Origin: Kutzneria buriramensis
Lineage (GTDB): Bacteria > Actinomycetota > Actinomycetes > Mycobacteriales > Pseudonocardiaceae
Reading direction: 5' to 3'
Length of the DNA stretch: 64,000 nucleotides
Assembly: GCF_003387475.1 (NCBI RefSeq)
Contig: NZ_QUNO01000034.1
Span: 1-64,000 of the forward strand
In this document: positions 1 through 56,242 of the stretch, in pieces
How the letters are laid out: each line of letters begins with the position of its first letter
Numbering within the stretch: the stretch's first letter is position 1
The notes under the pieces: generated by a model
Told to the model about the DNA's origin: nothing
Seen by the model: the letters and a program-made list of their open reading frames with translations, nothing else
Databases searched by the model: none
Made by a program: the position numbers and the translations under genes

Positions 1-1065
<1,065 letters not shown>

Positions 1066-1197
1066 GTTCTCTCGCCCAACCAACACCTGTCGGAGCCGCA
1101 GCCGGCAGGAACATAGTCTGAGACCGCCGATACACGCCACCCAGCTCTGCGACTCCACTTGGGACGATCCGGAGGAGCATCGCCGACGCCGGATTGT

Positions 1198-2081: not shown

Positions 2082-2690
2082 GTGAACGTCACCGGGAAGA
2101 CGTCGATCGGCCGACCGCGAGGATTCGACGCCGACGAGGCCCTTGAGCGGGCCATGGTGGTCTTCTGGGAGCAGGGCTACGAGGGCGCCACCCTGACCGA
2201 CCTGACCAGTGCCATGGGCATCACGAAGACGAGCATGTACGCGGCCTTCGGCAACAAAGAGGACCTGTTCGGCAAAGCCTTGGAGCGCTACGCCGAAGGT
2301 CCGGCCGCCTACGCGGCTCGCGCGCTGGAGCAACCGACCGCCCGAGAGGTGGCCACGGCGTTCCTCGCCGGCTCGGTCGAGGCTAGTACCCGCCCCGGCT
2401 GTCCCGCCGGGTGCCTGGGCGTTCAGGCGTCTCTGGCGGCCGGTGAGGTGGGGCGGACCGTCCGCGACGCCCTGACCGCCTGGCGTGAGGAGGGTCGTTC
2501 GCGCCTCTGCGACCGGTTCCAGCGAGCCGTCGACGAAGGAGACCTGCCCCCGGACGCCGATCCGGGACTGCTCGCCCGGTACATCATGACCGTGGCGAAC
2601 GGCATCGCCGTCCAAGCCTCCGGCGGCGCCAGCCGCGATGAACTCCAGCAGGTGGCCGACGCAGCCCTGCGGAACTGGCCACCCGCCTGA
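2082..2690 (+). CDS. TetR-family transcriptional regulator
   Basis: This is a 202-residue one-component repressor. The N-terminal helix-turn-helix (about residues 12-58) contains GYEGATLTDLTSAMGITKTSMYAAFGNKEDLF, here named only by its family pattern, followed by an all-helical ligand domain with a CPAGC motif near residue 108. That motif occurs in the AcrR/YcdC-like subgroup often paired with SDR or redox genes. The start is GTG 2082. It is divergent from the SDR at 1240-1989, sharing a 90-bp promoter region with two palindromes, which suggests autoregulation plus repression of the SDR. The ligand cannot be predicted from sequence. Confidence 0.88.
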   Translation: MNVTGKTSIGRPRGFDADEALERAMVVFWEQGYEGATLTDLTSAMGITKTSMYAAFGNKEDLFGKALERYAEGPAAYAARALEQPTAREVATAFLAGSVEASTRPGCPAGCLGVQASLAAGEVGRTVRDALTAWREEGRSRLCDRFQRAVDEGDLPPDADPGLLARYIMTVANGIAVQASGGASRDELQQVADAALRNWPPA

Positions 2691-2806
2691 CAACCGCCGC
2701 TCCGGCGGGTAGTGGACCGAGGATCCCGCCCCATGGCCCTCGCCTGCCAGGCCGAGATGCAGCCTGCGGGCCTGACAGACCCCGCGAACGACCGGCAGTT
2801 TCCTCA

Positions 2807-3167
2807 ACGCTGGTGTTGCTGCTCGACCACGTGGGCCGCAAGTCCGATCATGCCCGCACCAGCCCGCTGATCTGTTTCGACGACGCACCCGCCTGGTCAT
2901 CGTCGCGTCGAAGAGCGACACGGACGCCCACCCGGCGTGGTTTCACGGCCTGATGGCCATGGAGTCCGCTGAGGTCGAACGTCCAGGAGGGCACCGCCGC
3001 CGGGTCCGACCGCGCGTTGCCGACGGAGACGAACGGACGGCGCTGTGGGAATGGAATGGATGGTCGCGATGTATCAGCCTTACGCGACCTATGCCACCTA
3101 CACCCGGCGACAGATCCCGCTCGGCGTGCTCGAGCCCGCCGACGACCGCCCCTCGTTGGCTTCATGA
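2807..3167 (+). pseudogene. Decayed deazaflavin (F420)-dependent nitroreductase-family gene
   Basis: Pieces of the DUF385/Ddn family can be read in different frames. First comes LLLDHVGRKSDHARTSPLICFDD, read here as family blocks LLLxxxGRKS and RTSPLICF. After a shift near 2885 come RLVIVASKSDTDAHPAWFH and GGHRRRVRPRVADGDER. After another shift near 3055 come MVAMYQPYATYA and RRQIPLGVLEPADD, ending TGA 3165-3167. Members are about 130-150 residues, fold as a split barrel and bind F420H2. At least two frameshifts and a poor N-terminus make function unlikely. The 580-bp stretch between tetR and the PAS gene holds nothing else I can recognise. Confidence 0.7.
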
Positions 3168-3275
3168 CTGGCCAGGCCAGCCACGCGTCCTGTCCCCCGC
3201 AGGTTGGTTCCGCGTCTGTTTGGGCCAGGTGGCGACCGCCACAGCATTGCCCTCAGCGGCTGGGTGCACCAGCAC

Positions 3276-3548
3276 CTATGGGCTCCAACCGATGCGGGGT
3301 GTAGAGACGTGGAGCAACCGTCCGATCAGCTGGGTGAGCTCGCGGCCGGCGCGTTCCCGCACGCTCGGGTGCAGTAGGGCGAGGAAGGGATGGCCGTAGC
3401 TGTCCGGCGGCCGGCGGTCGAACTGATTGAGGACGTCCACAGTGGACTCATGCAGCAGCAACTCGGAGTCCAGGTCGGCCATGCACATGCCGGACTGCTC
3501 GAACAACGACCGGAAACCGTCCCGGTACTCCGAGTGCTGCTGCGTCAT
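3276..3548 (-). CDS. Short PAS-domain protein, probably a truncated sensor/regulator
   Basis: The 90 residues cover most of one PAS fold: FRSLFEQSGMCMADLDSELLL at the start, then LNQFDRRPP, then FLALLHPSVRERAGRELTQLIG. The same opening is common in actinomycete PAS-LuxR regulators, which continue with about 100-250 more residues including a DNA-binding helix-turn-helix. None is present here. It starts 17 bp after the GH87 stop, on the same strand, with AGGAC upstream, so it may be co-transcribed as the last gene. Reading runs on past the homology with an odd tail (RLLHVSTPRIGWSP). It may be a remnant or a stand-alone PAS protein; I favour a remnant. Confidence 0.55.
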   Translation of the reverse strand: MTQQHSEYRDGFRSLFEQSGMCMADLDSELLLHESTVDVLNQFDRRPPDSYGHPFLALLHPSVRERAGRELTQLIGRLLHVSTPRIGWSP

Positions 3549-3565
3549 GATGCAAGAAGGTCCTC

Positions 3566-6442
3566 TCAGAAGCCGCTGTCACCGGCGCCGCGGTTGATGG
3601 TGTAGCCGTTCGGGTTGTTCAGGCCGCCGGACTGGGCGCCGCTGACGGTGACCCCCTCGGCGGCCATGCTGCCGGTCACGTCCTCGATGTCGATGCCGTA
3701 GGTGCCGGCGCCGGAAATGGTGTCCTGGGTGAGGCCGAGATTGCTGATCTGCTTGGCGTAGCTGAGCAGCACCGCCTGGTAGGTGCTGTTGTCGATGGCG
3801 GTGCCGGCGACCAGGACCGGCTGGGTGATGTCGAGCTGGTTGGCGTAGATCCACAGAGCGCCGAGGGCCGAGCCCCAGTTGGAGTTGAACGATCCGGCGC
3901 GGGTCAGGGTGTTGTCCTGCACGGTGGTGGGGCCGGTGAAGCCTCCGCCGAACGCGGTGCTGACGGTGATGCCGGAGCCGAACGCCACGGTGTCGGCGAC
4001 CAGGTTGTCGGCGACGAGGTTGTTCCCGCCGCCGTAGACACCGATGCCATTGGCCTGGATCGGGCTCTGCACGGTGTTGTTGGCCAGCACGCAGCCGGTG
4101 ACGTTGCCGTTCTCGGTGTCCAGGGCGAGTTCGTCGTCGCCGGCGTTGCGCACGACGGACTGGGCCACACGTGAGTTGGTGGTGCCGCCGTTGAAGTGCA
4201 CGCCGTCGGCGAACACGTCGCGGACCCTGGCGTTCACCACGTCCAGGCCGTTGCCCGCGTCGGTCCAGATGCCGACCTTGGTGTGCTCGATCCACACGTC
4301 GAAGATGAGCGAGCCCGCTGAGAAGTTCCCTTCGACGCCGGCGGCACCTGCGTTGTTGTTGCGGTCGGTCTGGTCGCCAGCGACGGTCAGGTCGGCGATC
4401 TGGTTGACGCCGCTGGTGGCGAACAGACCGCCGGCACCGTTGACGGCGGTGGACTGGAGCGTGGCGTACCACTGACCCGCACCGCGCAGGGCGACGTTCG
4501 CCATGCTGATCTGGCCGGAGATGTTGTATGTGCCGGTGGGGAACCACAGGCCGGTCCCCGTGCCGGACAGCGACGACAGCGCACGGTTGATCGCTGAGGT
4601 GTCGTCGGCCCCGCTGTTCGGTGTGACCCCGAAGTCGGTGATCGACTTGAAGTTCGCCGGCATCGTGTAGGCCGGGTCGACTTGCTCGGCGTCGAGGACA
4701 TCGATCGTGTAGGAGGCGGCGGTGTCGGCGCTGTCCTTCTGGAGCTTGATCACGGTGCCGGCCGGCTGGCTGCCGATCAGCGCTCGGGTCTCGTCGTAGA
4801 AATGGTGCGCCGGTCCGTTGGACGGGTCGTGGGTGTCGGTGTAGCCACCGCCGTAGAGCCAGGAGTATTTGGTGGTCAGGGCGAGGTCGGTGATGTGGTT
4901 GCCGCTCGCGTAGACCGCCAGCGGCGCGGTCGCGGTCGACCCGTCGGAGTTGTCGGGGATGGAGTAGCGGACCACAATCGCGTTGGCCGCCTTGGTCAGC
5001 GTGAACTGCACGTACTGGCCGGTCGACGTCAGCTGGACGGCCCGGCGGCCGGTCGACTCCGCCTGCAGGCTCGGGTAGGTGGTGCTCGCTGGCAGCACGG
5101 TGCCGTTGGTCTGTGCCGCTGCGGCCGGGTATTCGGTGTACGGGGTGGTCGCGCCCCGGCCTGCCAACGGCTGGCCGCCGGCCACGGCGATGTAGTTAAC
5201 CGCGAGGTTGCCGCTGTCGCCCGAGTCGGTCTTGAGGCCGACCACGTTCACGCCGGCGCGCAGGCTGACGTTGGCGGTCAGCGTCAGCCAGCCGCTGCCC
5301 GACGCGGCACTGAGCTGCCCGTTCTTGATCCCGTTGAGGTACAGCGAGACGGTCTGGCTGGAACCGGTGGAGTTCGCGTAGGCCACCGTCACCGGATAGG
5401 TGCCGGTTGTCGGCGCGTTCACCGTGAAGTCTGCCAACGCGCCCTGTGTGGTGAAGCCGGTCAGGTAACCGGGACCGTAGTAGCCCGACAGCGCGGTGGC
5501 CATCGTGGGGCCGCCGGCGGCGAAGGCGCTGGCGGCGGGATAAACCTGGCCGGACGGGGTGGGCAGGGGTGTGCCGACCGTGATGTCGTCGAGGTTGACG
5601 TTGCCTGTGTCGGTGGTGTCGAACTCGTAGGTGATCGTGTTGGTGCCGGCATCGAGTGGCAGGTTCTCGGTCTTGGTGGCCCAGGTGTTCCAGTCGGCGG
5701 TGGCGGCGAGGACGGTTTGCAGTGTCTTGGATCCGTTGGTATAGACCGACAACGTCATCGTCGCGCCGGTCCCGTTGGCGTAGCGGAGGGTGACTGGTGT
5801 GCTGCCTGCCGCGGTGGTGGTGACGGTGAACGCGGTGGCGGCGATGCCCTTGTTGCCGTCGGTGTAGCCAGCGACGAACCCGGTACCGCTGTAACCGGAG
5901 TGATCGCCGGCAACGACGACACCGCCGGACAGCGCGGCGTTCTCCGCTTCGTATGTGCCGGCCGCCGCCATGGCCTGGGCCACGTCGAGGTAGTCGAGGT
6001 TGAGGTTGCCGCTGTCGGCGGTGCCGAAGGAGTAGGAGACGCTGTGGGAGCCGGCGCCGAGCGACACGACGCTGTTGATGGTGGCCCAGCTGTCCCAGTT
6101 GGCGGTCGCGGGCAGCGTGATCTGCTGCGGTGAGCCGGAGTCGACGGTCAGCGTGAGCGTCTTGGCGGACCCGGTGCCGTTGGCGTAGCCGAGGGTCAGC
6201 GAATACGAGCCGGTGCTGGCAGTGCTGACCGTGAAGGTCGTCTTCGCGGTTGCCTTGTTGCCGTCGGTGTAGCCGGCGACGAACCCGGTGCCGCTGTAAC
6301 CGGAGTGATCGCTGGCGACAACCGCACCGCCGGACAGCGCGGCGTTCTCGGCTTCGAGCCGGATACTGGTCGCCGCGTGGGCGCTGCCGAACGGCAGCAG
6401 CGCCACGACCAGGATCAGGGGAAACAATCGGTGCAGGGACAT
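3566..6442 (-). CDS. Secreted GH87 alpha-1,3-glucanase (mutanase/mycodextranase) with three CBM modules
   Basis: This 958-residue endo-acting enzyme is predicted to cut alpha-1,3-glucan outside the cell. It has a Sec signal (residues 1-23, ending GSAHA), then three CBM35/CBM6-like modules (about 26-155, 163-290 and 300-425). Modules 1 and 2 share EAENAALSGG and DHSGYSGTGFVAGYTDGNK. A linker and jelly-roll region follow, then a right-handed beta-helix (about 590-958). The helix shows WTD (Asp728), ADGVHF (Asp746) and GDDELAL (Asp769, Asp770). The 746/769/770 spacing equals that of the catalytic Asp1045/1068/1069 I recall for Paenibacillus GH87. The start at 6442 has GGAG 8 bases upstream; an ATG at 6472 overlapping the permease stop is the alternative. 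It is the last enzyme gene of a LacI-controlled operon. Confidence 0.88.
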   Translation of the reverse strand: MSLHRLFPLILVVALLPFGSAHAATSIRLEAENAALSGGAVVASDHSGYSGTGFVAGYTDGNKATAKTTFTVSTASTGSYSLTLGYANGTGSAKTLTLTVDSGSPQQITLPATANWDSWATINSVVSLGAGSHSVSYSFGTADSGNLNLDYLDVAQAMAAAGTYEAENAALSGGVVVAGDHSGYSGTGFVAGYTDGNKGIAATAFTVTTTAAGSTPVTLRYANGTGATMTLSVYTNGSKTLQTVLAATADWNTWATKTENLPLDAGTNTITYEFDTTDTGNVNLDDITVGTPLPTPSGQVYPAASAFAAGGPTMATALSGYYGPGYLTGFTTQGALADFTVNAPTTGTYPVTVAYANSTGSSQTVSLYLNGIKNGQLSAASGSGWLTLTANVSLRAGVNVVGLKTDSGDSGNLAVNYIAVAGGQPLAGRGATTPYTEYPAAAAQTNGTVLPASTTYPSLQAESTGRRAVQLTSTGQYVQFTLTKAANAIVVRYSIPDNSDGSTATAPLAVYASGNHITDLALTTKYSWLYGGGYTDTHDPSNGPAHHFYDETRALIGSQPAGTVIKLQKDSADTAASYTIDVLDAEQVDPAYTMPANFKSITDFGVTPNSGADDTSAINRALSSLSGTGTGLWFPTGTYNISGQISMANVALRGAGQWYATLQSTAVNGAGGLFATSGVNQIADLTVAGDQTDRNNNAGAAGVEGNFSAGSLIFDVWIEHTKVGIWTDAGNGLDVVNARVRDVFADGVHFNGGTTNSRVAQSVVRNAGDDELALDTENGNVTGCVLANNTVQSPIQANGIGVYGGGNNLVADNLVADTVAFGSGITVSTAFGGGFTGPTTVQDNTLTRAGSFNSNWGSALGALWIYANQLDITQPVLVAGTAIDNSTYQAVLLSYAKQISNLGLTQDTISGAGTYGIDIEDVTGSMAAEGVTVSGAQSGGLNNPNGYTINRGAGDSGF
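5849..5951 (-). repeat. Second copy of a 103-bp intragenic repeat (CBM module 2 start)
   Basis: This aligns without gaps to 6254-6356 with about eight mismatches counted by eye. It encodes the start of the second carbohydrate-binding module. The DNA identity is much higher than that of the rest of the modules, suggesting recent duplication or gene conversion. Confidence 0.8.
6254..6356 (-). repeat. First copy of the 103-bp intragenic repeat (CBM module 1 start)
   Basis: Partner of 5849-5951. It covers the codons for EAENAALSGG through YTDGNK of module 1. The third module at about 5460-5530 is clearly diverged. Confidence 0.8.
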
Positions 6443-6468
6443 GGTTCTTACTCCATTCCGCAGGCGGG

Positions 6469-7329
6469 TCATCCCTTCACCGCACCGCTGAGCGCGTCGT
6501 TGCGCAGGAACAGCCGTTGGAACACGAGGAACAGCGCCACCGGGATGACGGTGGCAATGGCCAGCGCGGCCAGGAACACGTCCAGCTCGACGAACGGCTG
6601 CAACGCCGGTAGCCGGACCGACAACGGCTGCACCGACGGATCAGGCAGCACGAGCATGGGCCACAGGAAGTCCTTCCAGGACGCGATGACGGCGAACACC
6701 GAGACCACACCGATGATCGGTTTGGACATCGGCAGCACCAGCGACCAGAACAGCCGCCCGGCGCCGGCGCCGTCGACGCGCGCGGCCTCGAAGACCTCGC
6801 GGGGCAGGTTGGCGAAGAACCGTTGCACGATCAGGACGTTGAACGCGCTGGCGCCGGAGGGCAGCCACACCGCCCAGAACGTGTTGATCAGCGATAGATG
6901 CACCATCGTCAGGTACATCGGCACCAACAGCACGATCGACGGCACGAACATCGTGGCCAGCACGACGCCGGAGACCGCATGCCGGTAGCGCGGTCGCAGC
7001 ACCGACAGCACGAAGCCGGCGGTGGTCGCGACGACGAGCTGCACCAGCCACGAGCCGGCGGCCAGCAGCACGGTGTTGAGGAAGTACCGGTCGATCTGGA
7101 CCCGGGTCCATGCCGTGGCGATCGTGCTGAGGTCCACGCCGTGCGGCCAGAGTGCCAGCGGGTCGCGCAGGGTGTCCTGGGTGGGGGTGATCGCCGACTT
7201 CGCCAGCCACAGCACGGGACCAAGCCCGACCAGGAACAACAACACGAGCAGTACAGCGTGCACGGTGCGTGCCGTGCGCCGCACCACCGGCCGGCGCCAG
7301 TCATAGGACGAGAGCAGCCCGCGGTTCAC
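6469..7329 (-). CDS. ABC sugar transporter permease, MalG type
   Basis: This is a 286-residue inner-membrane permease with six predicted helices and the CUT1-family EAA loop EAARVDGAGAGRLFWSLVLP, which docks the ATPase. It pairs with the MalF-type permease just upstream; start and stop overlap by 4 bases (ATGA), indicating translational coupling. Together with the lipoprotein it should import oligosaccharides released by the GH87 enzyme. As in many actinomycetes, no ATPase gene lies in the operon, so a shared MsiK-like ATPase elsewhere is expected. Start ATG 7329. The substrate is inferred from context only. Confidence 0.93.
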   Translation of the reverse strand: MNRGLLSSYDWRRPVVRRTARTVHAVLLVLLFLVGLGPVLWLAKSAITPTQDTLRDPLALWPHGVDLSTIATAWTRVQIDRYFLNTVLLAAGSWLVQLVVATTAGFVLSVLRPRYRHAVSGVVLATMFVPSIVLLVPMYLTMVHLSLINTFWAVWLPSGASAFNVLIVQRFFANLPREVFEAARVDGAGAGRLFWSLVLPMSKPIIGVVSVFAVIASWKDFLWPMLVLPDPSVQPLSVRLPALQPFVELDVFLAALAIATVIPVALFLVFQRLFLRNDALSGAVKG

Positions 7330-8285
7330 AAGGTGCCCCAGCTGCGGGTGAGACGGAAGTACACCGCGGAGAACACCGCCAGTACCAGGGCGAGTAGTAC
7401 GCTGAGCGCCGTCGCCGAACCGTAGTCGCCGCCCAGGGTGCCGGCGAACGCGTAGTCGTAGATCAGCAGCAGGATCGTGGTGGTGGCGTGCGCGGGACCG
7501 CCGCTGGTGAACAGGAACGGTTCGAGGAAGACCTGGGCGGTGCCGATGATCTGGAGGATGAACGTGATCAGCAGGACGCCGCGCAGCTGCGGCAGCGTCA
7601 CGTGCCAGATCTTGCGCCAGACCGAGGCGCCGTCGATCTCGGCGGCCTCGTACAGGTCAGGTGACACGCTGGTCAGCGCGGCGAGGTAGATGATGACCGT
7701 GCCGCCGGCCGCCGCCCAGGTCGCCTCCATGACCAGCGACGCCATCGCCGTTGACGAGTCCTGCAGCCACGGCAGCGGTCCGAGCCCGACCGCGCGCAGC
7801 ACGGTGTTGAACACCCCGGTGGGCCCGGCGTCGTAGAAGAACTTCCACAGCAGCACGGCAACCACCGGTGGGATCACCACGGGCAGGTAGGCAAGGGCGC
7901 TGTAGAGCCCGCGGAATCGGCGGACCTCGCTCATCAGCACCGCGGCCACCAGTGGCACCGGGTAGCCGAGCAGCAGGGCCAGCAGCGCGAACCACAGTGT
8001 GTTGCGCACCGCCGTCCACAGCAGCGGATCGGTGAGCACGGTGCGGAAGTTGTCCAGGCCGACGAACACCGGCGCAGTGACCAGGTTGGTCTGCTGGAAG
8101 CTCATCACGACGGACTCGGCGATCGGGTACCAGGAGAACGCCGTGAACACCACCAGCATCGGCAACAGGAACAGCAGTGCGCCGAGCCCGCCGCCGCGCA
8201 CCCACGTGACCAGCGAGCGGCGCCGCCGCCGGACCGGCGGCCGCCCGGTCGCGGCGGTCGTCGGCTTCTCCGCGGTGATGGTCAC
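7326..8285 (-). CDS. ABC sugar transporter permease, MalF type
   Basis: This 319-residue permease has a basic N-terminal tail (VRRRRRSLVTW), six transmembrane helices and the EAA motif EAAEIDGASVWRKIWHVTLP. It is the first permease after the binding protein, overlapping it by 4 bases and overlapping the MalG-type gene by 4 bases at its end. The order lipoprotein, MalF, MalG is the standard CUT1 order. It should form the channel heterodimer for the alpha-glucan oligosaccharide importer. Confidence 0.93.
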   Translation of the reverse strand: MTITAEKPTTAATGRPPVRRRRRSLVTWVRGGGLGALLFLLPMLVVFTAFSWYPIAESVVMSFQQTNLVTAPVFVGLDNFRTVLTDPLLWTAVRNTLWFALLALLLGYPVPLVAAVLMSEVRRFRGLYSALAYLPVVIPPVVAVLLWKFFYDAGPTGVFNTVLRAVGLGPLPWLQDSSTAMASLVMEATWAAAGGTVIIYLAALTSVSPDLYEAAEIDGASVWRKIWHVTLPQLRGVLLITFILQIIGTAQVFLEPFLFTSGGPAHATTTILLLIYDYAFAGTLGGDYGSATALSVLLALVLAVFSAVYFRLTRSWGTL

Positions 8286-9637
8286 GACTTGTCCAGCAAC
8301 GCTTGCGCCTGCAGCTGCGCGTCCGCGAGCATCGCCGGGATGCTGGCGTTGCGGTCGGTGAGCACCTTCTGCACCACTGTGTCCAGCAGCGCGTACACCT
8401 GCTGCGTGGACTTGGTGGGCTCAGGGACCAGCGGCTGGTCGAACATCTTGTCCGTGTAGGGGGCCATCTGCTTGACCGGCACGTTGACGTAGCGGGCGAT
8501 CCAGGTCATCCGCTGGTCGTACTGGGCCTTGTCGAAGACCGGCAGCTCCGGCGCGCCGACCACCTCGCCGGAGTCGGCCGTGGCCTTGGCGTCGGCGACC
8601 GCGGCGTCCTGGTTCGTCTGCTTCTGCATGTAGTAGAAGTCGATCCACTTCACCGCGGCGGCTTTGACGCTGTCCGATGCCGTGGCGCTGACCGCGGCCA
8701 GCGTGCCGCCGCCGAGCACGCCGGCGTCCTTACCGGTCAGCGGCAGAGCGGTGACACCGTAGTCGGCGGGCTTGATGGCGTTCTGGGCCTTGAGCGAGCC
8801 GTAGTTGGCGCCGCCGGAGACGTACATGCCGACGCGGCCGGCGGCGAAGTCCTGGTTGATGCCGTTCCAGTCGTACAGGAAGTTCGAGCCCATGCTGTTG
8901 TCGTCCCAGCGCATGGCGTGGAGCTCCTGGAGCGCGGCGGTCATCTGAGGTGTGTCCAGTGTGGACTTTGCGTGGTCGCCGCCGAGCTGCTCGGTGCGGC
9001 CGCCGAAGGCGTAGTCCAGAGTCGTCAGGATCCAGCCGCCGGTGTTGTCGGTGGTCATCTCGGCGTAGCCGGCCTGCCCGGTGCGCTGGGCGATCTGTCG
9101 CGCGTCGGCCCGCACTTGGTCCCACGTGATCGGCGGGTCGTCCGGGTTCAGTCCGGCCTGGGTGAACAGGGTGCGGTTGTAGTGCAGGGCCTGCCCGTAG
9201 GCGGAGATCGGTACCGCCCACATCCCGCCGTCGTCGGCCTCACCGGCCTTGGCGATCTGTGGCGAGAACTTGTCGAAGTACGGGAACGCCTTGACCAGTC
9301 CGCTGATGTCGGCGATCTGTCTGCGCTGGATGAGCCCGCGCCCGTCGGTGAACGGCATCGTGAACACGTCCGGCAGCGTGCCGCCGGCCAGCTTCGCGGT
9401 GAACGTCGTGGCGTCCCACTTGAACTCCTGGGTCCGCACATCGATGCCCGGGTTGGCGGTCTCGAACTGCTTGACCCTGGTGGTGAACGCCGCCACGGCG
9501 CCTTTGTCCAGGCCGGGGTCGATGGACACGGTGAGCGTGGTGTGGCCGTTGGCCGAGGTGTCGCCGCCGGCGCAGCCGGCCAGTGCGGTGGCGGCGACCG
9601 CGAGCGCGGCACCGGTGGTGAGGAGCTTCCAGGACAT
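8282..9637 (-). CDS. Sugar-binding lipoprotein of the ABC importer
   Basis: This is a 451-residue extracellular solute-binding protein (family 1). A lipoprotein signal peptide ends in the lipobox LAGC at about residues 20-23. Family features include FTTRVKQFETANPGIDV, LAGGTLPDVF and the GGGTLAAVS region. Start ATG 9637 is fixed by a perfect AGGAGG seven bases upstream; longer readings up to 9781 would run back into the GH13 gene. It follows the GH13 gene by 23 bases and overlaps the MalF-type permease by 4. It should capture nigero- or malto-type oligosaccharides; the binding specificity cannot be read from sequence. Confidence 0.92.
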   Translation of the reverse strand: MSWKLLTTGAALAVAATALAGCAGGDTSANGHTTLTVSIDPGLDKGAVAAFTTRVKQFETANPGIDVRTQEFKWDATTFTAKLAGGTLPDVFTMPFTDGRGLIQRRQIADISGLVKAFPYFDKFSPQIAKAGEADDGGMWAVPISAYGQALHYNRTLFTQAGLNPDDPPITWDQVRADARQIAQRTGQAGYAEMTTDNTGGWILTTLDYAFGGRTEQLGGDHAKSTLDTPQMTAALQELHAMRWDDNSMGSNFLYDWNGINQDFAAGRVGMYVSGGANYGSLKAQNAIKPADYGVTALPLTGKDAGVLGGGTLAAVSATASDSVKAAAVKWIDFYYMQKQTNQDAAVADAKATADSGEVVGAPELPVFDKAQYDQRMTWIARYVNVPVKQMAPYTDKMFDQPLVPEPTKSTQQVYALLDTVVQKVLTDRNASIPAMLADAQLQAQALLDKS

Positions 9638-9660
9638 CGTCGTCCCTCCTGTGCGGTGAA

Positions 9661-11316
9661 TCAGACTCGCAGCCAGACGGCTGTGTCGGTGGGGACCCGG
9701 GTGCCGTCGAGCTCGCCGCTGGCGAGCAGGACCGTGTCGTGCGGTGGCAGCGGCACCGCGTCGCCGAAGTTGACCAGGCACACGAACTGCTCACCCCGTC
9801 GGAACGCCAGGACGTGGTCCGGCAACCCGTCGACCCAGGCGAACGTCTCGCCCCGCAAGGCGGGTTCGGTACGACGCAGCCGGATCGCGACGCGGTAGAG
9901 CGTGAGCATCGAGTCCGGGTCGCCGGCCTGCGCGTCGACCGCGTACCGACCCCACCACTGCGGCTGAGGCAGCCAGGCCCTCCCGCCCTCACCGAACCCG
10001 AACGACGGACCCAAAGCGGTCCACGGCAGAGGCACACGGCAACCATCACGGCCAGGATCCTGACCGTCGGACCGGAAATACATCGGGTCCTGACGGGCCT
10101 CGTCGGGCAGGTCCTCGACCTCAGGCAACCCCAACTCATCACCCTGGTAGACGTAGAGCGAACCGGGCAGCGCCGCCGACATCAGCGCGGCAGCGCGGGC
10201 CCTGCGCCGGCCAAGCACGAGGTCGGTCGGCGTGCCGAAGCGCCGCGCCGCGAAGCCGAACGAGCTGTCCTGGCGGCCGTAGCGGGTCGCCGGGCGCGTG
10301 ACGTCGTGGTTGGACAGCACCCAGGTCGGCGGCGCATCGACGAGACCATGTGCGTCCAGTGTGGACTGGATGGACTCGCGCAGGCCGGCGATCTCCCAGG
10401 GGCGCATCATGAAGTCGAAGTTGAACGCCGTGTGCATCTCGTCCCGGCGCAGGTAGCGGGCGAACCGGTGCTGGTCGGCCAGCCAGATCTCGCCGACCAG
10501 GACTCGGGGCTCGGCATAGGAGTCCGCGACCGCACGCCAGGACCGGTAGATGTCGTGCAGGCCGTCCCGGTCGACGTACGGGTGCTCGCCAGGCCCGTGG
10601 GAGTGGACCAGCTCGGGGAAGGTGGCGTCCTTGACCGGCATCGTCGCGGAGTCGATACGGATACCCGCCACGCCGCGGTCGAACCAGAACCGCAGCACGT
10701 CCTCGTGTTCGCGCCGCACGTCGGGGTGGTTCCAGTTCAGGTCGGGCTGCTGTGGCGCGAACAGATGCAGGTACCACTCCCCGGGCCTGCCGTCCGGGTC
10801 TGTCGTGCGGGTCCAGGTTCCGCCGGAGAACGGAGACACCCAGTCAGTCGGCGGCAGCTCGCCGCGCTCGCCGCGGCCCGGACGGAACCAGAACCGTTGG
10901 CGCTCGGGCGATCCCGGCGCGGCGGCGAGCGCGGCCCGGAACCACTCGTGCTGGTCGGACACGTGGTTGGGCACGATGTCCACAATGGTGCGGATGCCGA
11001 GGTCGGCCGCCTCGGCGATGAGCGCCTCCGCCTCGGCGAGCGTGCCGAAGGCGGGGTCGATCGCGCGGTAGTCGGCGACGTCGTAGCCACCGTCGGCCAG
11101 CGGCGAGATGTACCACGGCGTGAACCAGATGGCGTCCACGCCCAGGGCCTTGAGGTAGGGCAGCCGGGAGCGGACACCGGCGAGGTCACCGGTGCCGTCG
11201 CCGTTGCCGTCGGCGAAGCTGCGCGGATAGACCTGGTAGATCACCGCGGTCCGCCACCACTGGTCCGTCGACCGGGCGGACCGCGGGTCGGTCGCGATGG
11301 AGACACTGCTGCTCAC
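9661..11316 (-). CDS. GH13 alpha-glucosidase (oligo-glucosidase type), cytoplasmic
   Basis: This is a 551-residue alpha-amylase-family enzyme without a signal peptide, so it should split imported oligosaccharides to glucose. Family regions in order: AVIYQVYPRSF, DIVPNHVS, GIRIDS (nucleophile Asp about 222), VGEIW (acid/base Glu about 276), SNHDVTRP (Asp about 338). The residue after the nucleophile is Ser where alpha-1,4-specific enzymes often have Val, which may bear on linkage preference (inference). I chose GTG 11316, behind GGGAG. The ATG at 11376 would put the start only 6 bp from the LacI operator. It is the first gene of the operon and divergent from lacI. Confidence 0.9.
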   Translation of the reverse strand: MSSSVSIATDPRSARSTDQWWRTAVIYQVYPRSFADGNGDGTGDLAGVRSRLPYLKALGVDAIWFTPWYISPLADGGYDVADYRAIDPAFGTLAEAEALIAEAADLGIRTIVDIVPNHVSDQHEWFRAALAAAPGSPERQRFWFRPGRGERGELPPTDWVSPFSGGTWTRTTDPDGRPGEWYLHLFAPQQPDLNWNHPDVRREHEDVLRFWFDRGVAGIRIDSATMPVKDATFPELVHSHGPGEHPYVDRDGLHDIYRSWRAVADSYAEPRVLVGEIWLADQHRFARYLRRDEMHTAFNFDFMMRPWEIAGLRESIQSTLDAHGLVDAPPTWVLSNHDVTRPATRYGRQDSSFGFAARRFGTPTDLVLGRRRARAAALMSAALPGSLYVYQGDELGLPEVEDLPDEARQDPMYFRSDGQDPGRDGCRVPLPWTALGPSFGFGEGGRAWLPQPQWWGRYAVDAQAGDPDSMLTLYRVAIRLRRTEPALRGETFAWVDGLPDHVLAFRRGEQFVCLVNFGDAVPLPPHDTVLLASGELDGTRVPTDTAVWLRV

Positions 11317-11381
11317 GGGGCTCCCGTCGTCGGATTCCGGGCAGGGGAAACACAGAAGCGCGAGGCGCGCCGCCATTAAGG

Positions 11382-11393
11382 TTTAGCGCTATA
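11382..11393. promoter_or_regulatory. LacI-type operator between the glucan operon and its regulator
   Basis: TTTAGCGCTATA carries the palindrome TAGCGCTA with a central CG/GC step, the usual half-site style of LacI/GalR proteins. It lies 65 bp upstream of the chosen GH13 start and about 90 bp from the lacI start, so it can control both directions. Confidence 0.55.
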
Positions 11394-11478
11394 CTTCGGA
11401 TGAAGGTAATCTCGGTGCCCGCTGCTGTCAACGGTCACCGGGCTGCATAATCTGGGGCATCGACGAAGGGGGTCTGGC

Positions 11479-12504
11479 GTGCGGGTTACGTTGCGCGACG
11501 TCGCCGAGCGGGCGGGCGTGAGCATCATGACCGTGTCGAACGTGATCAACGGCAACCGCGCACGGGTGTCCCCGGAGACCATCGAGCGGGTCCAGCGCAT
11601 CGCCGCCGAGCTCGGCTACGTGCCCAGCGCCTCGGCACGCAGCCTGTCCGCCCGCTCGTCCCGGCTGATCGGACTGCTCGTGCCCGCCGCCGACGAGGAC
11701 AGCCTCATGATCAGCCCGCACAACGTGGCCATGGTCGGCCAGATCGAGCGCGAACTGCGCCGGCTCGGCTACCACCTACTGCTGCGCGGGATCGCCAACC
11801 AGCGCGAGGTCACTGAGGCGTTACAGTCGTGGAGCCTGGACGGGGCGATCCTGCTCGGTTTCCTCGACGAGCAGGTCGACGGGCTCACCGCCAAGACCGT
11901 CGGCAGTGTGCACGTGCTGGCCATCGACAGCTACTCGACCAATCCCCTGACCATCGGTCCACGCTCCGACGACTTCACCGGCGCCCGGCTGGCCACCCGG
12001 CACCTGCTCGACCTCGGCCACCGCCGGATCGTGTTCGCCGGGCCGGCGTTCACCGGCGTCGGCGTCGTGCACGAGCGTTTCGAGGGCTACCGTCAGGCGC
12101 ATGCCGACGTCGGCGCCACCTGGGACGGCCAGTTCATCGAGACCGTCAACACCACCCACGCCGACGGCCGAGAGTTGGGGCTCGGTCTGCTCGACCGGCA
12201 TCCCGAGGCGACCGCCGTGTTCGCCACCGCCGACGTCCTGGCCATCGGCATCATGCGTGGCCTGGCCGAATCCGGCGTCCGCGTGCCCGACGACGTGTCC
12301 GTGGTCGGGTTCGACGACCTCGACCTGTGCGAGTACGCGGTGCCGCGGCTGACGACCGTGTCCCAGGACATCACCGCCAAGGCCGCCACCGCCGTGCGCA
12401 TGCTCATCGACTCCATCGAAAATGGCGCACGCCCCAGCGAGCCCGTGACGATCACCGTGTCACTCGTGAAACGTGAATCGACCGCGCCGGCACCCCACCA
12501 ATGA
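11479..12504 (+). CDS. LacI-family repressor of the alpha-1,3-glucan operon
   Basis: This 341-residue regulator has an N-terminal LacI helix-turn-helix (TLRDVAERAGVSIMTVSNVINGN, residues 4-26, quoted as family blocks), a hinge (ASARSLSARSS) and a periplasmic-binding-like effector domain with VVGFDDLDL near the end. Start GTG 11479 follows GAAGGGGGT. It faces the GH13-ABC-GH87 operon with one palindrome between them. By analogy with MalR and CebR it should repress the operon until an imported oligosaccharide binds. Dyad position and orientation support this; the inducer is unknown. Confidence 0.92.
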   Translation: MRVTLRDVAERAGVSIMTVSNVINGNRARVSPETIERVQRIAAELGYVPSASARSLSARSSRLIGLLVPAADEDSLMISPHNVAMVGQIERELRRLGYHLLLRGIANQREVTEALQSWSLDGAILLGFLDEQVDGLTAKTVGSVHVLAIDSYSTNPLTIGPRSDDFTGARLATRHLLDLGHRRIVFAGPAFTGVGVVHERFEGYRQAHADVGATWDGQFIETVNTTHADGRELGLGLLDRHPEATAVFATADVLAIGIMRGLAESGVRVPDDVSVVGFDDLDLCEYAVPRLTTVSQDITAKAATAVRMLIDSIENGARPSEPVTITVSLVKRESTAPAPHQ

Positions 12505-12545
12505 ATTGGTCGGGCTCCCGCCTTCAACGTGCCATCCCGGACCCG

Positions 12546-13244
12546 TCAGATCGAGGTCGCCAGTCCGTGTTCCAGGACACGCGCCGCGCGTCGCACGTCC
12601 GCGGCAACCGCTTTCCGCAAGTCCTCCGGCGAGGTGGTGTGTTCCAGGTGCCTACAGGAGGCGTCGGCCTGGACAGGCCAGAGCCCCGCCAATGCGGCGG
12701 CGGCGATGCGGAGTTCGGGATCGTGCGAGGGCTTGCCAGTCCTTGAGGCGAGGGCTTCCCTGGCCGCGTCCGTCATGCGGCTGAGTAGCCGGAGCGAGTG
12801 CACCTGAAGGGCCGGGGTGTCTCGGACCATGGCCTCGATTCGGAGCGCCGTGTCGGCCGCCCGGGTTTGTTCGTCTTGCTCCGCGAGCCAGGTGACCAGG
12901 TCGTCGAGCACACCGTCCAGGATCGCCAGCATGGCCTCGACTGCCGTACTGGTCGGGTTGGTCAACTCCGCCCGGAGCTTGTCCAGCAGCGTCTCGGGCA
13001 CGTCGAAGATCATCGACTCCTTCGACGGGAAATAGTTGTACACGGTCGCCGTCGCCACACCGCACGCGCGGGCGATCTCGGCGACCGTGATCTCGTCGAA
13101 GCCATGCTCCAGGGACATCCGCGTCGCGGTGTCGATCAACAGCTCGCGCGTGGCGCGCTTGCGTTGCTCCCGCCGGCCGGCCGGCCAGGCGTCGTCTGCC
13201 GCGGCGTGACGTCGCGCGGTCCAGTTCACCTGCTGAGGTGACAT
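12546..13244 (-). CDS. TetR-family regulator divergent from SnoaL-like genes
   Basis: This is a 232-residue TetR protein. The DNA-binding part (about 30-75) contains ELLIDTATRMSLEHGFDEIT and GVATATVYNYFPSKE. The C-terminal domain is helical and unclassified. ATG 13244 is preferred; a GTG at 13253 is possible, and neither has a strong ribosome site, so a leaderless message is conceivable. A perfect 8-bp inverted repeat (13288-13310) lies in the 116-bp gap to the divergent SnoaL-like operon, which points to repression of that operon and of itself. Confidence 0.88.
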   Translation of the reverse strand: MSPQQVNWTARRHAAADDAWPAGRREQRKRATRELLIDTATRMSLEHGFDEITVAEIARACGVATATVYNYFPSKESMIFDVPETLLDKLRAELTNPTSTAVEAMLAILDGVLDDLVTWLAEQDEQTRAADTALRIEAMVRDTPALQVHSLRLLSRMTDAAREALASRTGKPSHDPELRIAAAALAGLWPVQADASCRHLEHTTSPEDLRKAVAADVRRAARVLEHGLATSI

Positions 13245-13287
13245 AGCGGACACAGTAGCCAGGCCTTCCAGAAGCGAGCGTTACGAT

Positions 13288-13310
13288 AAACTTGGAACGA
13301 TGCCAAGTTT
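13288..13310. promoter_or_regulatory. Perfect inverted repeat, likely TetR operator
   Basis: AAACTTGG, 7 bases, CCAAGTTT. This is a perfect 8-bp dyad located between the divergent tetR and SnoaL-like genes. It is AT-rich compared with its surroundings and sits where a promoter would be expected. Confidence 0.7.
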
Positions 13311-13360
13311 GCGGCGAGGGTCTTCCCGCCGCGTTCAGACCCTACGGAGTGGAGCACCTC

Positions 13361-13750
13361 ATGTCCGACCTCGAGCGCAACAAGCAGGTCGTCGTCGACT
13401 ACTACCAGACCGCCTTCGACGGCGACCCGGAGAAGGCGATCGCCGACCACTTCGGCCCGACCTACACCCAGCACAACCCAGACGCCCAGGACGGCCCCGA
13501 GGCCTTCATCGGTTTCGTGCGCTGGCTGCGCGGCGAGTACCCGAACGTGCAGCTGAACATCAAACGCGTCATCGCTGAGGGCAACTTGGTCGCCACTCAC
13601 TCTCACCTGGACCTGGAGCCGGGCAACCCGGACAACCCCGGCCGCGCGTTGGCGGACTTCTTCCGCCTGGAGAACGGCAAGGTCGTCGAGCACTGGGACG
13701 TCATCCAGGAGGTCCCGAAGAAGTCCGCCAACGACAACGGCATGTTCTGA
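13361..13750 (+). CDS. SnoaL-like (NTF2-fold) protein
   Basis: This is a 129-residue NTF2-fold protein with the pattern VVDYYQTAFDGDPEKAIADHFGPTYTQHNP and an ending HWDVIQEVP typical of SnoaL-like polyketide cyclase or ester-cyclase relatives. Many such proteins are lone enzymes of unknown substrate. Start ATG 13361 is set by GGAG 6 bases upstream; longer reading to 13292 would cross the operator. It is first of a two-gene operon; its stop overlaps the next start (TGATG). Control by the divergent TetR is inferred. Confidence 0.85.
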   Translation: MSDLERNKQVVVDYYQTAFDGDPEKAIADHFGPTYTQHNPDAQDGPEAFIGFVRWLRGEYPNVQLNIKRVIAEGNLVATHSHLDLEPGNPDNPGRALADFFRLENGKVVEHWDVIQEVPKKSANDNGMF

Positions 13751-14157
13751 TGACCACGGCCGAACCCGGCCGCACCCCTGCGGAGACCGTGCGGCTGCAG
13801 TACCTGGCCTCGGCGACCGGCGACATGGACCTGTGGCGGTCGGTGGTGGCGGAGGACCTGGAGTGGACCGAGTCCGCGGGCTTCCCGCTGGCCGGTACCT
13901 ACCGCACCCCCGACGGCACGATCGACGGCGTCTTCGCCAAGCTCGCCGAACAGTGGGATGACTGGACCACTCACGACGACAGCTATGTTGCCGACGGCGA
14001 ACGCGTCGTGGTCCTGGCCCGTTACAGCGCTCGCAACAAGGCCACCGGCAAGGCGATGCAGGCCCGCGTCGCGCACTCTTTCATCGTCCGCAGTGGACGC
14101 ATCGTGCGGATGGAGCAGATCGTCGACTCCGCCACCGTCCGCGCCGCGATGAGCTGA
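13750..14157 (+). CDS. Second SnoaL-like (NTF2-fold) protein
   Basis: This 135-residue protein has an NTF2-like core: YLASATGDMDLWRSVVAEDLEW, VFAKLAEQWDDW and VAHSFIVRSGRIVRMEQIVDSATV. This is the KetoSteroid isomerase-like branch (SnoaL-2), different from its neighbour, so the pair is not a simple tandem duplication. Translation is coupled to the upstream gene through a TGATG overlap. It may form a heteromer with it or act on a common substrate; nothing in the sequence fixes the reaction. A hairpin follows 26 bases after the stop. Confidence 0.85.
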   Translation: MTTAEPGRTPAETVRLQYLASATGDMDLWRSVVAEDLEWTESAGFPLAGTYRTPDGTIDGVFAKLAEQWDDWTTHDDSYVADGERVVVLARYSARNKATGKAMQARVAHSFIVRSGRIVRMEQIVDSATVRAAMS

Positions 14158-14182
14158 GCCACCCGAACCAGGACACGGACCC

Positions 14183-14217
14183 GACGGCCCGTGGGCGGGC
14201 TTCCCTCACGGGCTGTC
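14183..14217 (+). terminator. Hairpin after the SnoaL-like operon
   Basis: GACGGCCCGTG and CACGGGCTGTC form an 11-bp stem (one G-U) with a 13-base loop, just after the second SnoaL-like gene. The 140 bases from here to the next start hold no other gene that I can support. Confidence 0.6.
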
Positions 14218-14355
14218 GGGCCTGTGCGGCCAGCCGGCCGCCTGGACCCTGGCCTGCTCGGCGGTGATGACACCGCTGTACAAGCCGTCCACCAAAGCCT
14301 GACGCTGGCAACCCCCCTGCCGAAGACACATCCGCCGGAACGGAGACACACACCC

Positions 14356-55062: not shown

Positions 55063-55188
55063 ACAGCGACGCCGAAGACTCGTCAAGACGGGTGCACCGG
55101 ATGGCCCAGCACCCCGTCTTCGTCCAGATAGATACCCATCTACCTGGGAATTCTCTGGCCCGCGTACGATGGTGACGAGCGCCGGCTC

Positions 55189-55200
55189 TGACACGTTTCA
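55189..55200. promoter_or_regulatory. LacI-type operator
   Basis: TGACACGTTTCA differs by one base from the perfect palindrome TGAAACGTTTCA with a central CG, the classic LacI/GalR half-site style. It lies 20 bp upstream of the lacI start, so autoregulation is likely. Confidence 0.6.
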
Positions 55201-55219
55201 AGCGAGAAGGTGGACAGCC

Positions 55220-56242
55220 ATGCGACGCGTGGGCATCAAGGACGTCGCCCGGCTGGCCGGGGTGTCGGTCGGCACCGTCTCACACGTGCTGAACCGCCCC
55301 GAGGTGGTCGCCGCCACCACCCGGCAGCGGGTCGAGCAGGCCATCGGCGAGTTGGGTTTCGTGCGCAACAGCGCCGCCGGCACACTGCGCGCCGGCCGCA
55401 GCAAGGTGCTCGGCCTGGTCGTGATGGACGTGACCAATCCGTTCTACACCGACATCGCCCGTGGGGCCGAGGATGTCGCGCAGGTCAACGGGTACGTGGT
55501 GATCCTCGGCAACTCCGACGAGTCCGACGACAAGGAGTCCAACTACCTTCGCGTGCTCCAGGAGCAGCAGGTCGCCGGCGTCCTCATCACGCCCGTGCAC
55601 GACGATTCGACGCGCCTGCGCCAACTCCGCGACGTCGGCACCTCGGTGGTGCTGGTCGACCGGCCAGCACAGGGCGTGGACCAGTGCTCCGTCGCCGTCG
55701 ACAACGTCGCCGGCGGCCGCCTCGCCGCCGAACACCTGTTGGGCCTCGGCCATGACGAGATCACCTTCGTCACCGGTCCCGCCGCCATCCGCCAGTGCGC
55801 CGACCGCCGCGCCGGCGTCAAGGCCGCCCTGCGCGCAGCCGGCATCCCCGCCGCGACCGGCCTCCGCGAGTTCGTCGTGCCCGCCATGAACACCGCCTCC
55901 GGCCGCGCCGCCGGCGAGAAACTGGTGCAGGGCAAGCGCCGGCCCCGCGCCATCTTCTGCGCCAACGACCTGCTCGCCGTCGGCGTCCTCCACGTCCTGC
56001 TGCGCGCCGGCGTCCGGGTGCCTGAGGACGTCATGATCGTCGGCTACGACGACATCACCTCCGCCGAGTCCGCCGCCATCCCCCTCACCACCGTCCGCCA
56101 GCCCACGTACCAGATGGGCCACATGGCCGCCGAGTTGATGATCGCCGAGTGCGAGCAGCCGCAGCACCACGCCCACCAGCAGATCCTCTTCCAGCCGACC
56201 CTGGTGGTCCGCAGCACCACCAAGGCGAGCCCGCCGCGATGA
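55220..56242 (+). CDS. LacI-family regulator
   Basis: This 340-residue repressor has an HTH (about 4-28, GIKDVARLAGVSVGTVSHVLNRP), hinge (AAGTLRAGRSK) and effector domain with VIVGYDDITSAES near the end. ATG 55220 has GAAGGTGG seven bases upstream; the longer reading from 55169 crosses the operator. Divergent from the Tat-exported enzyme/propeller operon, it probably controls that operon in response to a sugar. Ends two bases before the opposite VOC gene stop. Confidence 0.92.
   Translation: MRRVGIKDVARLAGVSVGTVSHVLNRPEVVAATTRQRVEQAIGELGFVRNSAAGTLRAGRSKVLGLVVMDVTNPFYTDIARGAEDVAQVNGYVVILGNSDESDDKESNYLRVLQEQQVAGVLITPVHDDSTRLRQLRDVGTSVVLVDRPAQGVDQCSVAVDNVAGGRLAAEHLLGLGHDEITFVTGPAAIRQCADRRAGVKAALRAAGIPAATGLREFVVPAMNTASGRAAGEKLVQGKRRPRAIFCANDLLAVGVLHVLLRAGVRVPEDVMIVGYDDITSAESAAIPLTTVRQPTYQMGHMAAELMIAECEQPQHHAHQQILFQPTLVVRSTTKASPPR

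Follow-up and report, generated by a model that had tools for sequence, protein, structure and literature searches.

We analysed a window of 64,000 nt from Kutzneria buriramensis (contig NZ_QUNO01000034.1, positions 1–64,000; the window is this whole stretch, and all coordinates below refer to it) and found at 3566–12504 a five-gene minus-strand operon with a divergent LacI gene, a real and conserved operon that most likely serves the use of α-1,3-glucan. Its genes are transcribed in the order GH13 (glycoside hydrolase family 13), binding lipoprotein, MalF-type permease, MalG-type permease and GH87. Taken together, domain content, operator layout and recurrence across genomes make it probable that the locus is a local, LacI-repressed operon serving the use of α-1,3-glucan, either from the fungal cell wall or as streptococcal mutan. 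The features of the locus are the following:

3566–6472, minus strand: secreted GH87 enzyme of the α-1,3-glucanase type (Pfam domains, alignment with solved GH87)
6469–7329, minus strand: MalG/UgpE-type permease (domain matches)
7326–8285, minus strand: MalF/UgpA-type permease (domain matches)
8282–9637, minus strand: sugar-binding lipoprotein of the MalE/CMMBP type, 451 residues, lipobox LAGC (NCBIfam, PDB and fold matches)
9661–11316, minus strand: GH13 α-glucosidase, presumably cytoplasmic, 551 residues from GTG 11316 (571 residues from ATG 11376)
11379–11396: predicted LacI operator, AGGTTTAGCGCTATACTT on the plus strand, a palindrome centred on CG
11403–11408, minus strand: −10-like element TACCTT (conservation)
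11426–11431, minus strand: −35-like element TTGACA, 17-nt spacer (conservation)
11479–12504, plus strand: divergent LacI-family regulator, 341 residues (domain matches)

An earlier note on this DNA had described one minus-strand operon with a divergent LacI gene, and all six genes were found on the strands it gave. The overlapping stops and starts that it also described are present by coordinates at three of the four junctions, each with a four-base overlap (two of the four if GH87 begins at 6442), and are absent between the GH13 and binding-protein genes, which are separated by a gap of 23 bp. The range of 3276–12504 assigned to the locus holds for 3566–12504; behind GH87, the interval 3276–3548 (minus strand) contains only an open reading frame (ORF) of 90 residues that matches neither a Pfam family nor, by tblastn (E ≤ 1e-3), any of the comparison loci, so that the operon proper ends at 3566. 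For GH13, the ATG at 11376 that had been taken as the start is 3 bp away from the operator and not preceded by an evident ribosome site; GTG 11316 lies behind GGGAG and has a counterpart in all six other loci of the same gene order, and residues 1–37 of the long version fall below 50 in a structural model whose overall confidence score (pLDDT) is 75.2. We therefore conclude that GH13 probably starts at GTG 11316. Judged by its sequence context, GH87 (968 residues as called, 958 from ATG 6442) probably starts at ATG 6442 rather than 6472; ATG 6442 is preceded by GGAG and followed directly by a signal peptide, which was recognised by inspection.

The GH87 enzyme carries a two-part catalytic unit, consisting of a galactose-binding-like domain (CatAgl_D1, residues 444–598, 151 bits) and a right-handed β-helix (CatAgl_D2, residues 628–929, 67 bits). 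Both matches exceed the Pfam cut-off, and the second covers positions 10–339 of the 389 in the model. Ahead of the catalytic pair lie domains of the carbohydrate-binding module (CBM) types CBM35/CBM6 at residues 38–165 and 175–299, together with a weaker third. In an alignment with solved GH87 enzymes the catalytic triad is kept as Asp756, Asp779 and Asp780, the catalytic residues of Agl-KA being Asp1067, Asp1090 and Asp1091 (PMC6814745). The three aspartates are present in 53 of 62 aligned GH87 stretches, and the remaining nine lack two or three of these columns. Agl-ST (Streptomyces thermodiastaticus, 7c7d) and Agl-KA (Bacillus circulans) share the two-domain unit and the three catalytic aspartates with the window enzyme but are distant from it in sequence. 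The genome contains five further GH87 genes, on contigs C3, C5, C12, C18 and C19 (L154–L158); among the ORFs picked around these five paralogues, no importer genes like those of the operon were found.

The regulator combines a helix-turn-helix with a sugar-binding domain, as expected for the LacI family, and a predicted palindromic operator lies at its target promoter. The intergenic region between LacI and GH13 has the same layout in all seven loci of this gene order (the window, L041–L045 and L080): a TTGACA element, a TAnnnT element and, directly after it, a palindrome. In the window, the promoter-like element TTGACA-N17-TACCTT lies just upstream of the palindrome. An automatic sigma-70-like promoter scan of 2600–13500 listed no site, and the promoter call is drawn from conservation alone. 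The 18-bp palindrome AGGTWTAGCGCTAWACCT is matched at 11379–11396 with one mismatch (0.00 matches expected in 100 shuffles), and it or a near copy with at most two mismatches is found in all seven loci; the operator predicted in the earlier note at 11382 is thus borne out as a conserved palindrome. Within the window genome, the operon site alone has at most two mismatches (two more sites have three), and the regulator therefore looks local. Across ten genomes we found 17 sites, eight of them with at most two mismatches (six at the operon, one at G064:C7 and one in G002), compared to eight sites for a reversed-pattern control. A wider LacI regulon that includes other GH87 genes was rejected, as the nine three-mismatch sites look like noise against this control. 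The site at G064:C7 lies upstream of a lipoprotein-like ORF of 217 residues.

The importer is of the CUT1 (MalEFG) type, with a binding lipoprotein, whose LAGC lipobox was seen by inspection, and two BPD_transp_1 permeases. The binding lipoprotein has no Pfam match at E ≤ 0.001, and its family was assigned via NCBIfam, PDB and fold matches, the latter with a model of pLDDT 88.9. No ATPase is encoded in 3566–12504; three UgpC-type ATPases score over the cut-off elsewhere in the genome. An ATPase coded apart from its CUT1 importer is a common arrangement in actinomycetes. The locus had been called a complete, LacI-controlled import-and-cleave operon. In this description the import-and-cleave part stands, with the secreted GH87 as the last gene, a recurrent gene set and strong co-occurrence; "complete" overstates it, as the transporter ATPase is not encoded in the operon.

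From this gene content we propose the following pathway. The secreted GH87, held on the polymer by its CBM6/35-type domains, would release nigerose and short nigero-oligosaccharides; a related GH87 acting on a preparation of fungal wall yields glucose, nigerose and nigerotriose (PMC10696023). The lipoprotein would capture these fragments and the two permeases would import them, presumably driven by a shared ATPase of the MsiK/UgpC type from elsewhere in the genome, and the cytoplasmic GH13 would split them to glucose. Without inducer, LacI would occupy the 18-bp operator, a short way past the −10-like element, and thereby block transcription; a pathway product, probably nigerose, would release it.

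We determined how often GH87 and the importer set occur together and how often they are physically linked. Genomes were scored for the binding-protein family at E ≤ 1e-50, and linkage was defined as a distance within 12 kb of GH87. Of 296 genomes of the class, 39 contain GH87, 50 contain the binding-protein family and 36 contain both; the family is thus found in 36 of 39 genomes with GH87 compared to 14 of 257 without, although the genomes are mutually related and Fisher p values overstate their independence. As a control, the binding protein of a maltose locus is found in 38 of the 296 genomes (20 of 39 with GH87, 18 of 257 without). Physical linkage is the cleaner test than genome-level co-occurrence. 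By this measure, 25 of the 71 binding-protein genes listed are linked to GH87, and these are spread over 25 of the 36 genomes that have both; for the control it is none of 39 genes in the 20 genomes that have both. A set of 150 relatives gives a similar picture: 35 have GH87, 39 the binding-protein family and 34 both (one has GH87 only, five the binding protein only), and 21 of 45 binding-protein genes lie near GH87, in 19 of the 34 genomes with both. As far as gene content and position can tell, the grouping of GH87 with the importer set is not chance.

The earlier note had proposed to look for this gene order across actinomycete genomes. The order, with divergent LacI, recurs in six other loci (L041–L045 and L080), and the set is kept in at least three orders. 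Among loci L041–L140 with binding protein and GH13, counted with the GH87 nearest to the binding protein, we found as same-strand orders (i) GH13, binding protein, GH87 in six, (ii) binding protein, GH13, GH87 in 24 and (iii) binding protein, GH87, GH13 in four; in nine further loci GH87 lies ahead of the binding protein, with the genes on mixed strands in six. Of the 20 loci L041–L060 most, including nine of the 24 in (ii), were chosen for linkage, so that these counts are no measure of linkage rate. A scan of named genomes with an 18-row GH13 alignment, of which the best 80 of 589 relatives were kept, gave 54 loci with the binding-protein family (at least 350 bits to its own profile), and GH87 lies in the flanks of 28 of these 54. 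In the other 26 of the best 80 the binding protein is different, partial (L068, 257 bits) or missing; GH87 is found in none of them, and six end at contig ends. We take most of these 26 loci to resemble the Streptomyces maltose locus. A search of viral contigs gave no match.

Loci from Microbacteriaceae, Promicromonosporaceae and Kineosporiaceae (L061–L067, L070–L072, L075, L082 and L086) carry a set of LacI, GH13, binding protein and permeases with no GH87 in the flanks examined. The window genome itself has a second set of GH13, permease, binding-protein and LacI genes in another order (L047, G000:C15:5958-11896), which adjoins methylmalonyl-CoA mutase genes and has no GH87 within the 16 kb examined. 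We further searched the GH87-less loci for another substrate via 16 large neighbours in 12 loci and rejected this idea, as no polysaccharide-related neighbour among them is recurrent except a GH51 type in two Isoptericola loci. The 16 neighbours include GH51/GH43-type enzymes (Isoptericola), a GH95-like protein, LigD, NAD synthase, methylmalonyl-CoA mutases, peptidase/ABC exporters, an EAL/GGDEF protein and regulators, and two have no Pfam match.

The intracellular step is assigned to the GH13 enzyme, which matches the Pfam Alpha-amylase domain at 322 bits and has no signal peptide that could be seen by inspection. Its catalytic domain retains the Asp/Glu/Asp set, with Asp242 as nucleophile, Glu296 as acid/base and Asp358 (571-residue numbering), roles that we assume from the catalytic motifs. 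The nucleophile is followed by Ser243. The nearest solved sequences are 8yif and 8yie (559 and 558 bits; the next scores 292), which a docking paper links, via its reference list, to CmmB, a GH13 subfamily 30 enzyme of Arthrobacter globiformis (PMC13210095). CmmB has Val at the alignment position of Ser243. In a 101-row comparison that includes loci picked for GH87 linkage, the residue after the nucleophile is Ser in 61 rows, Val in 39 and a gap in one. GH87-linked rows have 36 Ser and nine Val (n = 45), rows with the binding-protein family and without GH87 have 23 Ser, six Val and one gap, and rows with another or no binding protein have 24 Val and one Ser (n = 25); a single row with a partial binding protein has Ser. 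Ser243 as a marker of GH87 linkage was rejected, since nine of the 45 GH87-linked rows have Val and the rows with the binding-protein family but without GH87 are mostly Ser too. The GH13 tree requires a single Ser/Val change, compared to at least 14 changes for the GH87-linkage label, some of them possibly caused by contig ends; the residue thus marks a lineage and not a repeated adaptation. No other clean column difference was found between the Ser and Val groups, which are defined by that column itself. In L044 (G069), a second GH13 gene at 12752–14281, 51% identical to the window GH13, follows GH87.

Region II is described as steering specificity in GH13 α-glucosidases (one abstract, one reference title), and from sequence Ser243 is a lead, not proof, for α-1,3 specificity. 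The stronger argument, in our view, comes from the pathway: GH87 products of mutan or nigeran would keep α-1,3 bonds, and because GH13 is the only cytoplasmic hydrolase of the operon, it would have to cut them. Where nigerose-active hydrolase families are named in PMC9061262, these are GH31 and GH63, not GH13, and variants of a GH13_31 enzyme have been assayed on nigerose (PMC10096246). Going further, it is conceivable, and we hold it only tentatively, that the Ser-marked group of GH13 enzymes is dedicated to α-1,3 bonds (nigerosidases) and that the operon represents one version of an undescribed system for α-1,3-glucan use that is widespread in actinomycetes and whose enzyme set has been reassembled in several orders. 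The Val in a fifth of the GH87-linked rows (nine of 45) speaks against Ser as the marker of such a group.

Several results weigh against the assignment of the whole operon to α-1,3-glucan. No solved GH87 is close to the window GH87 (best match 251 bits), while a paralogue in the same genome reaches 471. Fold matches of the binding protein to MalE, GacH, CMMBP, UgpB, TmMalE3, a β-1,2-glucan protein and a cycloalternan protein score about alike, with ligands that include maltose, acarbose, cyclic maltosyl-maltose and cycloalternan. An assignment of the ligand from this fold search was dropped, as near-equal scores do not discriminate. The nearest solved GH13, CmmB, works in an α-1,4/1,6 pathway. 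The control maltose binding protein also co-occurs with GH87, though less, so that some of the association is due to lineage and genome size. In the class sample, 46 of the 71 binding-protein genes are not near GH87, GH87 is missing from 14 of the 50 genomes with the binding protein, and the binding protein from three of the 39 with GH87. Finally, the flanks examined lack GH87 in 26 of the 54 named loci with the binding protein (six of the 26 end at contig ends, e.g. L078 of Kribbella), and the module of importer and GH13 thus has a life of its own.

These results bear on two alternatives of similar standing, both of which we consider unlikely. According to the first, the locus serves nigeran, a polymer of alternating α-1,3 and α-1,4 bonds; GH87 would then be a mycodextranase that cuts α-1,4 bonds, and nigerose-type units would be imported and split. 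The characterised GH87 enzymes are all described as mutanases or mycodextranases, the latter being 4-glucanohydrolases (PMC13421300), and a Streptomyces mycodextranase is known (PMC11475409). We constructed a GH87 tree, which placed three of the seven enzymes of the window gene order and four of the five paralogues of the genome; its length filter removed L043, L044, L045 and L080, which have the window gene order, and other stretches. The window enzyme falls into a set of seven rows (support 99) with L041, L042, L093, L092, L111 and L131, of which the Streptomyces loci L092, L111 and L131 have the order binding protein, GH87, GH13. This branch, which includes some Streptomyces and Streptacidiphilus loci, is separate from the paralogues that match solved mutanases (one matches 7c7d at 471 bits, one matches 6k0m at 444 bits, both solved α-1,3-glucanases), and it lies outside their clades. 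From the separate branch both polymers are possible, and the substrate of the window GH87 could by sequence be mutan or nigeran. The best solved match of the window enzyme is nevertheless the streptomycete α-1,3-glucanase 7c7d, in a comparison that included no mycodextranase sequence, and this favours α-1,3-glucan as the polymer attacked.

The second alternative is a general α-glucoside uptake operon, of the maltose, isomaltose, kojibiose or trehalose type, that has acquired a GH87 gene; its transporter and GH13 would not be tuned to α-1,3 bonds. Such an operon would account for the module without GH87 in the examined flanks of the Microbacteriaceae, Promicromonosporaceae and Kineosporiaceae loci, for the lack of any consistent other polysaccharidase among the 16 scanned neighbours, for CmmB as the nearest solved GH13 and for the non-discriminating fold search. 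We nevertheless judge it improbable, as the co-occurrence of the binding-protein family with GH87 is above that of the maltose-locus binding protein, linkage to GH87 recurs in at least three gene orders, and Ser replaces Val after the nucleophile in most GH13 enzymes of the module. A third possibility is that the operon is used to attack living fungi or to remodel the cell's own glucan rather than for growth on α-1,3-glucan. The five further GH87 genes in the genome could speak for it, but GH87 is apparently co-transcribed with genes for an importer and a cytoplasmic glucosidase, which points towards a nutritional role and makes this reading very improbable.

We compared the proposed α-1,3-glucan operon to known systems. 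The earlier note held that GH87 enzymes are usually described as single secreted enzymes; this goes too far, as a putative GH87 near a nigerose phosphorylase cluster (PMC9061262) and a predicted GH87 locus (PMC13421300) are already described. The nigerose cluster of Lachnoclostridium phytofermentans resembles the operon in having a putative GH87 near a nigerose-cleaving enzyme together with ABC-transporter and LacI genes; it belongs to a Firmicute, uses a GH65 phosphorylase (Cphy1874) and GH31_u1 (Cphy_1877), and the section on the cluster names no GH13 and describes the GH87 merely as located near the nigerose phosphorylase (PMC9061262). The predicted GH87/GH97/GH99 locus of Prevotella melaninogenica (Bacteroidota) likewise places GH87 with regulator and transport genes but has a TonB-dependent transporter and a surface sugar-binding protein; its authors state that, to their knowledge, no GH87 polysaccharide utilisation locus has been experimentally characterised (PMC13421300). 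The cmmA–G genes of A. globiformis share with the operon an extracellular enzyme, a binding protein with two permeases and an intracellular GH13, CmmB, and differ in their α-1,4/1,6 substrate, cyclic maltosyl-maltose, and in an extracellular enzyme that is itself a GH13 (PMC7676653); CmmB further differs from the window GH13 in its Val for Ser. Three loci, L112, L117 and L127, resemble the operon in having LacI, a binding protein with two permeases and a related GH13, 56–58% identical in its best segments. They differ in that the binding protein is distant, the flanks examined contain no GH87 and the nucleophile is followed by Val; we take them to be the Streptomyces maltose locus. Streptomyces strains that grow on mutan have been described in a paper that has GH87 in its list of enzyme families and whose main text does not contain the term "ABC transporter" (PMC11475409). 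In the open-licence literature we found no description of an actinomycete GH87/GH13 operon, nor of actinomycete α-1,3-glucan use beyond the secreted enzyme.

Elsewhere in the window, an ORF of 174 residues at 592–1116 (plus strand) matches the finger domain of the DNA polymerase III α subunit and seems to be a fragment of a dnaE-type gene, without continuation in the same frame, and a second LacI-family regulator gene lies at 55169–56239 (plus strand).

The concept of such a locus is already in print for another phylum, with GH65 and GH31 enzymes in Lachnoclostridium, and the actinomycete version differs from it in the intracellular enzymes. α-1,3-Glucan is an important polymer of fungal walls and dental plaque. 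With its exact predicted operator, its binding protein and a GH13 that is a candidate nigerosidase, this compact operon would make the full path from this glucan to glucose accessible to testing.
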